Assembly: GCA_003139775.1 (NCBI GenBank) | Contig: PLGI01000039.1 | Span: forward strand, 245-55,475 | Source: Syntrophaceae bacterium | Lineage (GTDB): Bacteria > Desulfobacterota > Syntrophia > Syntrophales > Smithellaceae | Length of the DNA stretch: 55,231 nt | Direction of reading: 5' to 3' | Shown: positions 3,735-54,545 of the stretch, piece after piece | Layout of the letters: each line of letters opens with the position of its first letter | Numbering within the stretch: position 1 is the first letter of the stretch | The notes under the pieces: model-generated | The model's database searches: none | What the model was told of the DNA's origin: nothing | What the model saw: the letters and a program-made list of their open reading frames with translations, nothing else | Position numbers and translations under genes: made by a program

Positions 3735-3750
3735 TTGTCAAGAGATTTAA

Positions 3751-3944
3751 TGAGACTCGCTGAAAACGAATGAAGTGAATAACCTAAAGGTCACTGTAGG
3801 TTTGAAGCGTTAGTCGAATTATCCCAGGAGCGTAACGACGCGGGATTTGAGACCAAAGTTTCAGAAGCGTAGCGTATAACCTAAAGGTCATCTGCGACTG
3901 AAATTTGCTGGTCGAATTATCCCCGAAGCGTAGTGAAGGGGGAT
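3751..3944. repeat. Tandem pair of modular hairpin repeats with TAACCT-AGGTCA inserts
   Basis: Two related units in tandem. Each ends in GTCGAATTATCCC followed by a hairpin closing in GGGAT (3814-3846 and 3910-3944). Each carries the 14-bp core TAACCTAAAGGTCA (3780-3793 and 3877-3890) in the loop of an outer hairpin; in unit 2 the outer arms are AAGTTTCAG and CTGAAATTT. It fills most of the gap between lexA and pgpA. The same modules recur in many other gaps of the window. Confidence 0.85.
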
Positions 3945-3986
3945 TCTAGGTTTTCGCAACTATGATTTTTTTGTTTCGGAGGAATT

Positions 3987-6450: not shown

Positions 6451-6511
6451 TGTCATTCCCGCGCAAGCGGGCGAAGTGCCCCTATAGTGACCTTTAGGTT
6501 ATTTAGGGTAA
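6451..6511. repeat. CATTCCCGC-type repeat with nested TAACCT-AGGTCA unit (left flank of orphan gene)
   Basis: Starts with TGTCATTCCCGCGCAAGCGGG, a hairpin-forming REP-like unit, followed by TGACCTTTAGGTTA (6488-6501) lying between halves of an ACCCTA...AGGGGCA palindrome read on the minus strand. The 11-bp TGTCATTCCCG (6451-6461) is perfectly inverted at 7321-7331 on the far side of the orphan gene. Confidence 0.7.
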
Positions 6512-7285: not shown

Positions 7286-7331
7286 AATTCCCGCCTTCGT
7301 ACCCTAAAGGGCATCCACGACGGGAATGACA
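7286..7331. repeat. GAATTCCCGCC...CGGGAATGACA hairpin repeat (right flank of orphan gene)
   Basis: ATTCCCG and CGGGAAT arms enclose CCTTCGT followed by ACCCTAAAGGGCA (7301-7313), itself a palindrome. A near-identical copy lies at about 21893-21941. The enclosed ACCCTAAAGGGCATC resembles TAACCTAAAGGTCATC found elsewhere, so it looks like a smaller unit inserted in the loop of a REP-like hairpin. Confidence 0.75.
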
Positions 7332-21892: not shown

Positions 21893-21941
21893 GGATTCCC
21901 GCCTTCATACCCTAAAGGGCATCTGCGACGGGAATGACAGG
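21893..21941. repeat. GATTCCCGCC...CGGGAATGAC hairpin repeat, copy 2
   Basis: GGATTCCCGCCTTCATA, then ACCCTAAAGGGCA (21909-21921), TCTGCGA and CGGGAATGAC. Almost the same as 7286-7331. The central ACCCTAAAGGGCATCTGCGAC has the same tail (CATCTGCGAC) as the TAACCT-AGGTCA unit at 3877-3899, showing that both are versions of one insertable unit. Confidence 0.75.
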
Positions 21942-26673: not shown

Positions 26674-27046
26674 CTAATACCCGTGATTCACCATCGATTT
26701 TTTTTGATGATACATTAAGAGAGAAAGAGACGTCAATGACATTCTCCATAATTACCCTCTTTTTGTGCTTATTATCCCTCGGCGCTTAGCGCTTGGTATA
26801 ATTCCCAATAGCCTTTGGCTATTGGATAATTCGACTTACAAACTTTAATGCGCTATGCTTTTAAGGTTTGAGTCTCATTACGTCCAGCAAGTTTCAGTCG
26901 TAGATGACCTTCAGGTTATTCACTTTGTTTCTGAAGCTTGGGTCTCATTATCAGCGAGTGTCACTAAGTTTCATTGAAAATCCCCCTAATTCCCCCTTTT
27001 ACCCTAATAACCTAAAGGTCACGCGAGGGCACGAGAGAAAAGGGGG
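26674..27046. repeat. Large cluster of nested hairpin repeats upstream of the ars operon
   Basis: Series of modules: ATACCCGTGATT; TTATCCC...TTGGTATAATTCCC; CCAATAGCCTTTGGCTATTGG; TTCGACTTACAAACTTTAA; then CAAGTTTCAGT (26888-26898), a 22-bp insert CGTAGATGACCTTCAGGTTATT (26899-26920), and the right arm of the hairpin CTGAAGCTTG; TCAGCGAGTGTCA; and last a triple nest at 26992-27046 (CCCCCTTTT, ACCCT, AATAACCTAAAGGTCACGCG, AGGGCACGAGAG, AAAAGGGGG). No coding capacity. The cluster ends 23 bp before the arsR promoter. Confidence 0.85.
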
Positions 27047-31584: not shown

Positions 31585-31750
31585 AATCACGGGTATGAAA
31601 CCCCAAAGCAAGCTTTGGAAACTTTTTTTCTAGAGCATGCTGCTGGGTATTCAACCCTCCGCCTTTGGCGGGATTGTTCGACTTACAAATTTTAACGTGT
31701 GACCTTTAGGTTATGCGTTTCACTTTTAAAATTTGAGTCTCACAAATAAA
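31585..31750. repeat. Repeat cluster with ACGGGTAT element and TAACCT-AGGTCA unit
   Basis: Fills much of the 380-bp gap between the divergent Rho_N-like and START genes. AATCACGGGTATGAAACCCC followed by AAAGCAAGCTTTGG (31585-31620) recurs at about 32.95 kb (inverted) and 38.88 kb. Then come CAACCCTCCGCC/GGCGGGATTG and the unit TGACCTTTAGGTTA (31700-31713) in the loop between AAATTTTAA and TTTTAAAATTT arms. Confidence 0.75.
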
Positions 31751-45712: not shown

Positions 45713-45807
45713 GGCATCCCCCTTATGGTTTTTTATATCAAATTATATTAATCAATTTGCCTCTTTCAACAACGCTTTCGATTACCTTATACTTATCGGA
45801 TATTAAT

Positions 45808-45917
45808 CCCGCGGCTTGGAATCCCCCGGCTTCAGCCGGGGGATTAATGCGGTGTAACCCGCGGGAGGTCTCATTATTGTAGGGAGCCTCCGGCTCCTGC
45901 CGGAGGTGGCTACACTT
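45808..45917. repeat. Palindromic repeat family P, copy 2 (uninterrupted)
   Basis: CCCGCGGCTTGGAAT, hairpin CCCCCGGCTTCAGCCGGGGG (45823-45842), ATTAATGCGGTGTAA, CCCGCGGGAGGT closing on the first CCGCGGG, CTCATTATTGTA, and hairpin GGGAGCCTCCGGCTCC...GGAGG. It gives the full, uninterrupted order of modules used to interpret the copy at 50.7 kb. It lies between rodA and bactofilin. Confidence 0.85.
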
Positions 45918-47058: not shown

Positions 47059-47458
47059 ATCATTAAAACAATCACGGGTATTAAACCCTCAGCTTCGCGG
47101 AATAATTTCCAATAGCCTTTGGCTATTGGATAGCCCCGCGTCGCTTCGCTCCTGGGATCAATTCCATTTACGCTTCAAATTTCGTTTCACTCATTTTCAG
47201 CGTAGGTCATTGATTCGACCGCCAAACCTCAGTGCGCTTCGCTTCTGAAGTTTGGGACTCATTATGACTTTCTCTTCCTGCTAGTCAGCGAGTGTCAAAT
47301 CCCCCGCCGCTTTGCTTCGGGGATAATTCCACTTACGCTTCAAACTTCGCTACATTCGTTTTACCACGGCGCTACGCGCCTGGTATAGTTCGCCTTACGC
47401 TTCAAACTTCACATCGTTCGTTTTCAGCTTGGCTCACTGTCAGCGAGTGTCATTAAAG
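47059..47458. repeat. Large mosaic of hairpin repeats between mrdA and rodA
   Basis: At least four modular units end to end. Visible modules: ATCACGGGTATTAAACCC; CCAATAGCCTTTGGCTATTGG (also at 26.8 kb); CCGCGTCGCTTCGCTCCTGGGAT; CAAATTTCGTTTCACTCATTTTCAGC; CTTCTGAAGTTTGGGACTCATTA; TCAGCGAGTGTCA (twice); and ACGGCGCTACGCGCCTGGTAT. No coding capacity. It replaces the usual close coupling of the two genes. Confidence 0.85.
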
Positions 47459-50656: not shown

Positions 50657-50682
50657 TTTTTACCCAATAGGAAAATAATGCA

Positions 50683-50868
50683 TCCCGCGACTTGTAATCC
50701 CCCGGCTCCAGCCTGGGGAGGAATGCGCCGTAACTCGCGGGAGGTTGCTTTATCCTCTGCTTCGCGGGATAATTCAACTGCAAGCTTCAGTGCACTTTGT
50801 TTCTGAAGCTTGGGTTTCATTATTATTAGGGAGCCTCCGGCTCCCCTGCAGGAGGGGGCTCCACTAAC
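50683..50868. repeat. Palindromic repeat family P, copy 3, interrupted by another hairpin repeat
   Basis: The left half (to GCGGGAGGT, about 50745) and the right half (CATTATTATTAGGGAGCCTCC, from about 50818) match family P copy 2. Between them sits a modular hairpin unit: TATCCTCTGCTTCGCGGGATAATTC, then CAAGCTTCAG (50781-50790) and CTGAAGCTTG (50803-50812), a perfect 10-bp stem, and GGGTTT. One repeat family has inserted into another. Located between mreB and mreC. Confidence 0.8.
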
Positions 50869-52145: not shown

Positions 52146-53741
52146 ATGTTGAGATTTTTTCGTAAACACGCGCGTGGCTGGTTCATGATTGCAATTATAG
52201 GAATCATCATTATTGTCTTTGTTCTTTACTTCGGTTCCAACAGAGGCAATAACACCGCAAATGCAATTGCCACAATCGATAAAAAAATAATCAGCGATGC
52301 AGAATTTCGTAACGAATATGGAAAATTGTTGGATAGGGCCCAGCTTAGCTTGGGCGCGAAGCTTACTCCGGAAATACTCAAGAAGATGGATCTCAAACGA
52401 CAAGCGTATAATGATTTGCTGAATCGGCAGATTATAATTGCTAAGGCCGAGGATTTAAAGATTCAAGTTTCCGATGAGGAATTAAGAAATATGCTCATGT
52501 CGGTTCCGGCATTGCAAACAAACGGTGTATTTGATGAACGCAAATACCAGCAAGCACTTCGCTATATTAAACTTTCCGCCGAAGATTTCGAAGCTCTCCA
52601 AAAAGCCGATCTAATTACGAATAAAATTGAAACTATTGTACGTGAAGGCATTAAAATTTCTGATCAGGAAATTTACGACTTGTATGCTTTGCAGAACCAA
52701 AAAATTAACGTTAATTTTGTGCAAATTTCCGGTAAAGATATCAAAAAGAAAATTACTCCGACCCAAACCGAATTGGAAGACTATCTGAAGCGTAACAGTA
52801 ATTTATTTCGTATCGCCGAACAGATGAAATTTAAATATATATTTTTCGCGGGCGATTCTTTTTCGCCAGATATCAGTGATTCCGATGTTAGAAGCTATTA
52901 CGTGAGCTACAAAGATAAATATAAGACGAAAGACGGCAAACAATTACCGTTGGCCGATGTTAAGAGCACCATAGTTAAAGAATTAAAGAAAACAAGGGGA
53001 ATGCAAAGCGCTTACGTTGAGGCGAAAAAGGCTCATGATATTATTTATCAAGAAGATAAATTTGAGGATTATGGCAATAAAAATAATTTAGAAATTCATG
53101 ATGTGGAGTTTTTCCCGATTAATAAACCACCGCAGGAATTTACATCCATTAATAATTTTACCACTATAATTTTAGATTTGCAGAAAGACGAAATCAGTAA
53201 AGTCTTTGCCGCCGAAAATGGCTATTATCTTTTGAAAGTTATCGATAAAAAACCCGCTTACTTGCCGAAACTGAACACCATAGAAAATGAAGTCCAGAGC
53301 CGCTTTATAGAAAGCGAAATGCAAATTCTTGCCGAAAAAGAAGCTAAGTCAATTTTGGATAGTACAAAATCAGGAGAAACTCTCGATAAAATCGCCGCAA
53401 AATACGGTTTGAAAGTTAACGAAACAGGGTTCTTCCAGCCAGGGAATTCTATTCCCAAGTTGGGATCTAACCAGGATGTGGCTGAAGTTCTTTTTCAACT
53501 CTCGACCAATAAACCGTACGCGGTAAAGCCGCTTTTCATCAATAATACTTATGTAATATTAAAGCTCAAGGATGTGAGTAAACTGGATGGGAAAGACTTT
53601 GAAGCAAAAAAAGACCTATATAAAAAGACATTGATTTCCATCAAAAGAGAAGAAGCCATGAAGACATGGTTGGAGGGCAATAAAGCGGCCATGATTAAGG
53701 AAAAAAGAATTAAGATTAAAAAACAAGTAGAGGATCTATGA
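52146..53741 (+). CDS. PpiD/SurA-type membrane-anchored periplasmic chaperone
   Basis: 531 residues. A short cytoplasmic start (LRFFRKHARGWF), one membrane anchor (about 13-30, MIAIIGIIIIVFVLYFG), then a SurA_N-like helical domain (IDKKIISDAEFRNEYGKLL, LNRQIIIAKAEDLKIQVSDEELRNML, FDERKYQQALRYIKLSAEDFE). The C-terminal half contains a rotamase-like region ending KVFAAENGYYLLKVIDKKPAYLP, but the parvulin core looks degenerate. It probably helps outer-membrane or secreted proteins leave the translocon and fold. Closest known type is PpiD; peptidyl-prolyl isomerase activity is doubtful. CGAGGTG ahead of ATG 52146. Confidence 0.87.
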   Translation: MLRFFRKHARGWFMIAIIGIIIIVFVLYFGSNRGNNTANAIATIDKKIISDAEFRNEYGKLLDRAQLSLGAKLTPEILKKMDLKRQAYNDLLNRQIIIAKAEDLKIQVSDEELRNMLMSVPALQTNGVFDERKYQQALRYIKLSAEDFEALQKADLITNKIETIVREGIKISDQEIYDLYALQNQKINVNFVQISGKDIKKKITPTQTELEDYLKRNSNLFRIAEQMKFKYIFFAGDSFSPDISDSDVRSYYVSYKDKYKTKDGKQLPLADVKSTIVKELKKTRGMQSAYVEAKKAHDIIYQEDKFEDYGNKNNLEIHDVEFFPINKPPQEFTSINNFTTIILDLQKDEISKVFAAENGYYLLKVIDKKPAYLPKLNTIENEVQSRFIESEMQILAEKEAKSILDSTKSGETLDKIAAKYGLKVNETGFFQPGNSIPKLGSNQDVAEVLFQLSTNKPYAVKPLFINNTYVILKLKDVSKLDGKDFEAKKDLYKKTLISIKREEAMKTWLEGNKAAMIKEKRIKIKKQVEDL

Positions 53742-53744
53742 TTC

Positions 53745-53828
53745 GACTTACCAATTTCAACGTGTGACCTCGCGTGACCTTCAGGTTATTAGGTTATACG
53801 CTACGCTTTTGAAATTGGAATCTCATTA
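53745..53828. repeat. Hairpin repeat with self-nested TAACCT-AGGTCA unit
   Basis: Outer arms CCAATTTCAA (53751-53760) and TTGAAATTGG. In the loop, CGTGTGACCT (53761-53770) and AGGTTATACG (53791-53800) are the two halves of one unit, split by a complete 20-bp copy, CGCGTGACCTTCAGGTTATT (53771-53790). The uninterrupted form of the outer unit is CGTGTGACCTTTAGGTTATGCG at 31696-31717. Confidence 0.85.
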
Positions 53829-53858
53829 AAAAGGGAAGAGTTGGCAAAAACTCTTCCC
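53828..53858 (-). terminator. Intrinsic terminator of tRNA-Ala
   Basis: On the minus strand GGGAAGAG and CTCTTCCC (53858-53851, 53840-53833) form an 8-bp stem with a 10-base loop, followed by TTTTT (53832-53828). Ten bases beyond the tRNA's CCA end. Confidence 0.85.
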
Positions 53859-54135: not shown

Positions 54136-54545
54136 ATTATAAAAAAGTGATGATTCAAGACCTATCCACCTATTTCCGTACAGATTAGTAAGAAATCAGA
54201 GGCATAAGAAAGACGCCTCGCATGATGAATTTAGAGAAGCTCCTTTAGAAAAAACCGAGGGATCTTCGATACGTACTTAAGTTACTGCTTTTTTATTAGT
54301 CTGCCTGTAACGTGCAGACATGATTACAGTATTCGACAAGCAAACTTCAGTCGCAGATGACCTTTAGGTTACGCACTCTGCTTCTGAAGCTTGGGTCTCA
54401 TTAACTTTCCAATTCCGACTTTTGACCTCGTGTAACCTCGCGTGACCTTCAGGTTATTAGGTTATGCGCTTCGCTTTCGCTTCCTTCTTTGGTTGAAGGC
54501 CGCAATAAAAGAAATAACTGAATTAATATTTTTCACGTCATCAGA
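54136..54545. repeat. Intergenic region with repeats (two TAACCT-AGGTCA units, one self-nested)
   Basis: The first 200 bp hold no gene; a GTCTGC/GCAGAC hairpin lies at 54299-54319. Then CAAACTTCAGTCGCAGATGACCTTTAGGTTA (54341-54371) lies in the loop of a hairpin closed by CTTCTGAAGCTTGGGTCTCATTAA. At 54423-54468 TGACCT, CGTGTAACCT and AGGTTATGCG surround the 20-bp unit CGCGTGACCTTCAGGTTATT (54439-54458), the same 20 bases as at 53771. Confidence 0.8.

Follow-up and report, generated by a model that had tools for sequence, protein, structure and literature searches.

The window analysed here, a stretch of 55,231 nucleotides from a Syntrophaceae bacterium (assembly GCA_003139775.1, contig PLGI01000039.1, positions 245 to 55,475), comes from a 3.4-Mb draft genome of 206 contigs that we call G000; other genomes (G) and loci (L) are named by similar handles. 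Near its right end lies a palindromic host element carrying a small hairpin unit inserted into another unit of the same kind. A unit consists of a 14-nt hairpin core preceded by a 5' tag of 4, 6 or 7 nt, which gives main length classes of 18, 20 and 21 bp. The locus is arranged as follows:

53742..53829, + strand: host palindromic element TTCGAC..TCTCATTA, with arms CCAATTTCAA/TTGAAATTGG, carrier of the nested units
53761..53770, + strand: left half of the outer 4-nt-tag unit (CGTGTGACCT)
53771..53788, + strand: inner 4-nt-tag unit, the net insert of 18 bp; once it is excised, the joined flanks match an uninterrupted copy in L151 at 43 of 44 bases
53789..53796, + strand: right half of the outer unit (TTAGGTTA)

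The first-pass annotation had described this nest as the halves CGTGTGACCT and AGGTTATACG around CGCGTGACCTTCAGGTTATT at 53761-53800, and both the sequences and the coordinates are correct. Two of its details have to be amended: the insert, given there as 20 bp, is a net gain of 18 bp (CGCGTGACCTTCAGGTTA, 53771-53788) when judged by the uninterrupted core TGACCTTYAGGTTA, and the insertion point, placed at the exact palindrome centre, is displaced by one base to the 5' side of the dyad axis (TGACCT^TTAGGTTA). The nesting itself is real and law-like. A scan allowing 3 mismatches returned four matches, of which the one at 31696 is the whole form and those at 53771, 54439 and 27006 are inner copies; 100 shuffles gave none. 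Moreover, with at most 3 mismatches the genome contains 13 copies of the 33-bp nested form and none of its reversed pattern, so that the nest at 53761-53800 cannot be attributed to chance. A chance origin of nesting in general was rejected on the evidence of shuffles, reversed pattern, control windows and random sites.

The core is an imperfect palindrome, either TGACC-TTYA-GGTTA or, with a C/G stem, TGCCC-TTYA-GGGTA. It forms a 6-bp stem (TGACCT/AGGTTA) with one G.T pair and a TY loop, and the G.T pair is kept in both forms. Among 42 matches to TGBCCTTYAGGNTA, 36 are the C/G-stem form TGCCCTTYAGGGTA, one more has T-A, three have a wobble pair and two are mismatched; since 37 of the 42 variant cores are Watson-Crick paired, the third stem base covaries with its partner. 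The tags are CGCG, CGTG, CATG and CTTG in the 4-nt class (CNYG), CTATAG, CCACGG, CTACAG and CCATGG in the 6-nt class, and TCGCAGA, TCGTAGA and TCATAGA in the 7-nt class (TCGYAGA and like).

The sequence RTGACCTTYAGGTTA is found exactly 114 times in G000 and never reversed; for the GTGACC form, allowing one mismatch, the numbers are 141 and 1. Of 60 genomes searched, the own one included, 36 contain RTGACCTTYAGGTTA: 34 of the 36 genomes of the family (again with the own one) and 2 of the 24 from other families, namely G039 with one copy and G052 with four. The highest count, 175, was reached in G021. The four units of G052 (L074, L213), which belongs to another family of the same order, include three on one 4.6-kb contig, and transfer or binning contamination is possible. 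A 24-bp nested pattern matched 40 stretches in the species-genome collection, all from metagenome-assembled genomes titled Syntrophaceae, Smithella or Deltaproteobacteria, and gave no match among virus contigs.

To define the inserts, a script excised 10-32 bp at each unit and the joined flanks were sought elsewhere in about 310 kb of the same genome (overlaps included), a match requiring at least 36 of 44 bases; 112 units were kept from 114 distinct contexts, those near the end of a stretch being dropped. A related empty site was found for 86 of the 112 units, as compared with 4 of 148 displaced control windows. Insert lengths among these 86 were 18 bp (27 cases), 19 bp (6), 20 bp (25), 21 bp (24) and other values (4), so that 82 fall at 18-21 bp. 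Of the C/G-stem units, 13 of 28 have an empty-site match, and 12 of these inserts measure 18-21 bp. A filled site has exactly one unit more than its empty counterpart, and no duplication of more than one base was seen. In the 7-nt class, and in 4-nt units that follow A, the boundary can slide by one base and a one-base duplication is possible.

The same picture is obtained at orthologous sites in the sister genome G014, in which 14 of 17 pieces were located (plus one weak paralogue match) and then 25 of 29 in a second set. At six sites the host is shared and the two genomes differ by one unit, of 18, 20, 20, 21, 21 and 21 bp. Two of these sites lie in the window and were compared with L299: 54439-54456 (18 bp, with G014 reading TGACCT^TTAGGTTA) and 54351-54371 (21 bp, read directly from the sequences). 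The others are the second unit in L032 versus L253 (21 bp, one base off the core), L015/L340 and L025/L351 (20 bp each) and L070/L336 (21 bp). No multi-base target-site duplication, as in miniature inverted-repeat transposable elements of DDE transposons, was found at the six sites. All six units are the extra ones in G000 because the loci were chosen by G000 units; the outgroups mostly lack the host or have a different one. Gain of the unit in G000 is likely at these six sites. Elsewhere, the nest of L035/L265 is present in both genomes, and at L032, L034, L042 and L030 G014 lacks the host that surrounds the queried unit. Exact-unit differences at L014/L300, L060/L351 and L170/L351 were not counted as orthologous, having been matched through repeats alone.

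The bases at the insertion point depend on the tag. In counts for which the tag classes were set up with the data already known, and in which related copies are entered separately so that independent events are fewer, the base to the left of the insert is G for all 40 units with a 7-nt tag (32 in G000, 8 elsewhere), C for 41 of 44 with a 6-nt tag (32/35 in G000, 9/9 elsewhere) and A or T for 161 of 181 with a 4-nt tag. The last figure combines 45/52 in G000, where the counts are nearly free of selection, with 116/129 elsewhere, a set that includes loci fetched by nested-pattern match, which inflates 4-nt tags with T upstream. To the right stands T for 44 of 44 6-nt tags, T or C for 40 of 40 7-nt tags, and T for 50/52 (G000) and 108/129 (elsewhere) 4-nt tags. 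The targets can thus be summarized as W^T for the 4-nt, C^TTY for the 6-nt and G^Y for the 7-nt class. These counts cover units with a recognised tag, which leaves aside 22 of 141 in G000 (8 of the 22 nested) and 24 of 170 elsewhere. Label shuffles reached the observed tag-flank association in 0 of 2000 trials in each of two sets. The rule was seen in both stem forms, and therefore follows the tag and not the stem; since empty sites have the same flanking bases, those bases are part of the target.

Nesting is frequent. Flanking halves unlike complete units, the outcome named by the first-pass annotation as evidence against it, did not occur: 38 of the 141 units lie within two halves of another unit. 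An independent recursive scan called 39 of 147 units nested, compared with 8 of 9650 random sites, and five of them at three levels; L393 consists of three perfect shells with C/G, A/T and C/G stems alternating, and in some other three-level calls the outer matches are degenerate. Nested 6-nt-tag units always follow core base 5 (17/17), nested 4-nt-tag units follow core base 6 in 11 of 13 cases, and none of 32 units with a 7-nt tag is nested. The core loop TGACC^T^TYAGG offers a C^T and then a T^T site, which explains why the 6-nt and 4-nt tags nest and the 7-nt tags never do. The proposal that the centre of a unit is the target of further units is thus borne out by the fixed offsets, as well as by G014, which has the outer unit of the second nest in the window (54429-54464) without the inner one. 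It is, however, only one case of a wider rule, since units are also found in the loops, or close to the centres, of several unrelated palindromic repeats, and the tag class tracks the preceding base.

In G021, three loci (L202, L203, L205) contain head-to-tail 18-bp arrays of three to four copies of a 4-nt-tag unit. The arrays of L202 and L203 fit the rule, because the last base of a 4-nt-tag unit forms an A^T site with a T that follows it; slippage is also possible.

The other hosts recognised are TTCGAC..CTCATTA elements, CATTCCCG..CGGGAAT repeats, the GAGGCGTAT..ATACG repeat, which was entered in both orientations (L018, L020), CCCTCC..GGAGGG and CCGG-type palindromes; a good part of the hosts was left unclassified by the script. 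In 48 of the 86 rebuilt hosts the junction falls in the predicted apical loop, where about 15 were expected, with 19 of 25 for the 20-bp and 17 of 27 for the 18-bp inserts.

Concerning the hosts themselves, the element at 53742-53829 is missing from the orthologous place in G010, G001, G008 and G007. Compared with G010 (L226), the host appears at 53741-53832 as an insert at ATT: the window reads ..CTATG-ATT-CGAC..TCTC-ATT-AAAAAGGG and G010 ..CTATA-ATT-AAAAAGGG. Possibly the TTCGAC..TCTCATTA host represents a second family of mobile palindromes, one that duplicates 3 bp. A block of 216 bp made of several joined hairpins (L032, 1471-1686) is missing in one piece from L253 of G014, with ATT on both sides.

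The comparisons show discrete units, near-absent duplication, targets linked to the tag and, in two classes, a preference for hairpin tips. From these features we are inclined to think that the units are miniature hairpins similar to repetitive extragenic palindromes (REPs), moved in single-stranded form by an enzyme of RAYT/IS200 type, the tag choosing the target. The enzyme would be a Y1 HUH transposase, either RAYT/TnpA-REP-like or IS200/IS605-like, that transfers a unit as single-stranded DNA; its single-stranded targets would be the tips of other hairpins when extruded, with the tag serving as the guide to the cutting point. The extended proposal is of a self-targeting hairpin system, in which the tag is a guide that sets the target dinucleotide and can, like the stem, be exchanged as a module. 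As the loop of a unit holds the target of two of the three tags, each insertion would create a new target and allow inward growth without built-in limit. To us the case for this proposal seems evenly balanced. A search for the enzyme, which covered Y1 transposase matches, gave hits in 30 of 39 genomes. RAYT-like proteins were found in G000 (contig C119), G010 and G021 (contig C57); against the NF047646 profile the one of G021 scored above the cut-off and three proteins of G000 and G010 just below it. One RAYT-like protein of G000, at 78.3 bits against a cut-off of 80, has a C-terminus resembling DnaA; the same genome also encodes an IS200 TnpA (contig C135).

Several observations weigh against movement by such an enzyme, or against parts of it. 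The target rule is broken by 20 of 181 units with a 4-nt tag and 3 of 44 with a 6-nt tag, and a search for simple complementarity between tag bases and targets established no matching scheme. The 21-bp (7-nt-tag) inserts fall in the predicted apical loop in just 7 of 24 cases and tend toward the stem-loop edge. The six orthologous differences may reflect either gain or exact loss of a unit, and at L070 the corresponding gap in the outgroup G013 is occupied by a filled host. No Y1 match was detected in three genomes that hold units, G026 (49 units, 93% complete), G012 (27, 79%) and G008 (15, 98%), and none of 37 Y1 loci is flanked by units on both sides. At two of the 37 (L318 of G021, L368 of G010) units lie about 160 bp away on one side. 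The chance of this is 0.01-0.03 per Y1 gene under a uniform model, but several-fold higher if units are intergenic, in which case the proximity is little more than would be expected. For this reason it was not counted as support; the two loci may be REPtron remnants or may owe their nearby units to chance. Across 33 genomes, the relation between unit number and Y1 is modest (rank rho 0.43, P 0.013, kinship ignored).

The three genomes without a detected Y1 gene and the lack of units bracketing Y1 genes would also suit units that are mobile as described and owe their movement to a DDE transposase, to a site-specific recombinase, or to reverse transcription of an RNA intermediate. We consider this unlikely, though a serious candidate, as duplication of at most one base, hairpin shape and tag-linked target are typical of the IS200/RAYT group; furthermore drafts may miss genes, and units may outlive a lost enzyme. 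It is also conceivable that the units are rarely mobile by themselves, and that a few old insertions spread within mobile hosts and by gene conversion between hosts sharing arms. Host elements do come and go (88 bp are missing in G014 at L034/L269), and many filled copies of one host type exist, such as seven nested CCACGG-tag units in 7-nt-tag hosts. However, several unrelated palindromes are occupied, one of them in both orientations (L018, L020), and at six orthologous places the unit is the only difference between the hosts. Some of these six could stem from conversion by a filled paralogue, but as a general account spread with the hosts appears quite improbable.

Replication slippage or template switching at a hairpin tip, copying both arms, would also yield nested palindromes. 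A palindrome inserted in its own centre does resemble a duplication of both arms, and the 18-bp head-to-tail arrays of G021 (L202, L203) fit such an origin. Yet the insert often differs from its host in tag or stem (in the window CGCG lies within CGTG), an A/T stem lies within a C/G stem 6 times and the reverse is seen 7 times, and insert lengths are constant across unrelated hosts. Slippage and arm duplication were accordingly ruled out for inserts that differ from the host in tag or stem, the tandem arrays of G021 excepted, and for the units as a whole we give this origin very little credit. We retain single-stranded movement by a putative RAYT/IS200-type enzyme as the working interpretation.

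The comparisons with published systems given here refer to excerpts of the cited papers. GTAG REPs are described as small high-copy palindromes of 20-40 bp, with stems mostly of 6-9 bp, short loops often TY and frequent G.T pairs, carrying an unpaired 5' tag GTAG that is degenerate to GYAG or GYRG, and in three species they were recorded inside other palindromes (PMC3733652); hairpin-in-hairpin placement by itself is therefore not new. Our units are likewise high-copy (114 exact cores in 3.4 Mb) and mostly extragenic palindromes, with a 6-bp stem, TY loop and G.T pair. Unlike what the excerpt reports for GTAG REPs, they self-nest recursively and follow a tag-target rule, and no REPtron was seen around the 37 Y1 loci (PMC3733652). 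As to the tags, GYAG or GYRG is present in the 7-nt forms TCGCAGA, TCGTAGA and TCGTGGA but not in TCATAGA, and the 4-nt and 6-nt classes (CNYG; CTATAG/CCACGG/CCATGG) have no GTAG-like motif. The units, at 18-21 bp, also lie at or just under the lower limit of 20-40 bp. With a GTAG-like tag confined to one of the three classes and no REPtron arrangement observed, we do not claim strict REP membership.

IS200/IS605 elements insert without target duplication. The same holds for the units at the six orthologous and 86 related empty sites, with one base possible where the boundary slides; they differ from these elements in being 18-21 bp, non-coding and a single hairpin instead of one per end. IS200/IS605 elements have hairpin ends and guide-selected targets, as the units combine a hairpin with a tag-linked target (PMC8266576). 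According to the same excerpt, the cut that TnpA-REP enzymes make in single-stranded REPs is at CT or CA, and for one enzyme it is altered by a change of the tag; a REP of Marinomonas, whose stem is 5 bp and whose loop is TTTA, is close to our core TGACC-TTYA-GGTTA (PMC8266576). The single-strand hairpin recognition and tag-guided choice of the cut described for RAYT/TnpA-REP can be likened to the units, whose mover would be of this type; unlike that work, here insertion products are seen and the enzyme is putative (PMC8266576, PMC6006769). The insertion sequences IS1397, ISKpn1, IS621 and ISPpu9 also use palindromic repeats as precise insertion targets, but they are gene-bearing, whereas here the repeat itself inserts, even into itself (PMC1525189). 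Yeast mitochondrial GC clusters are similar in being short palindromic mobile elements that merge together by an unsettled mechanism, and differ in their putative AG target-site duplication and organellar location (PMC4478555).

Our search of the open-licence literature found no report of self-nesting, of the tag-target rule, of exact boundaries based on orthologues, or of these units. The spread of REPs is described as poorly understood in the excerpt of PMC8266576. Here, related genomes display apparent movement of units: their ends are exact, no more than one base is duplicated, and a target rule of one base is tied to the tag. These features make the guide model of REPs directly testable. 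Repeats that build recursive palindromes also have a bearing on genome stability, assembly and annotation.

Units lie on both strands of the window, and 10 of 11 cores are outside the main open reading frames. An Rfam scan of the window returned three tRNAs and nothing else. The other units are:

3780..3799, - strand: 6-nt-tag unit, 20 bp
3877..3897, - strand: 7-nt-tag unit, 21 bp
6482..6501, + strand: 6-nt-tag unit, 20 bp, within a C/G-stem core (halves GTGCCC at 6476-6481 and TTTAGGGTA at 6502-6510)
7300..7320, - strand: 7-nt-tag unit, C/G stem, in a CATTCCCG-type repeat; a related empty site was searched for and none found
21908..21928, - strand: 7-nt-tag unit, C/G stem, in a CATTCCCG-type repeat; likewise no related empty site found
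26898..26918, + strand: 7-nt-tag unit, 21 bp, in a TTCGAC-type host
27008..27025, - strand: 4-nt-tag unit, 18 bp, within a C/G-stem core (TGCCCT^TTAGGGTA)
31696..31713, + strand: single 4-nt-tag unit, 18 bp, un-nested
54351..54371, + strand: 7-nt-tag unit, 21 bp, missing from the orthologous host in L299 of G014
54429..54438, + strand: left half of the outer unit of the second nest
54439..54456, + strand: inner 4-nt-tag unit of the second nest, 18 bp, missing from L299 of G014 (TGACCT^TTAGGTTA)
54457..54464, + strand: right half of the outer unit of the second nest

Three intergenic regions of the window (3747-3945, 26795-26951 and 47099-47424) are long mosaics of joined hairpin modules (ATTATCCC..GGGAT, TAATGAGAC..GTCGAA), whose joints are seemingly shared. 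A further family of large palindromic repeats, built around CCCCCGGCTTCAGCCGGGGG, is found at 2631-2745, 45801-45916 and 50682-50753. Finally, in G014 (L224, contig C198) a tRNA-Ala gene adjoining a nested site is interrupted after its 3' end, and the matching tRNA region follows about 20 kb further on, which suggests an integrated element.
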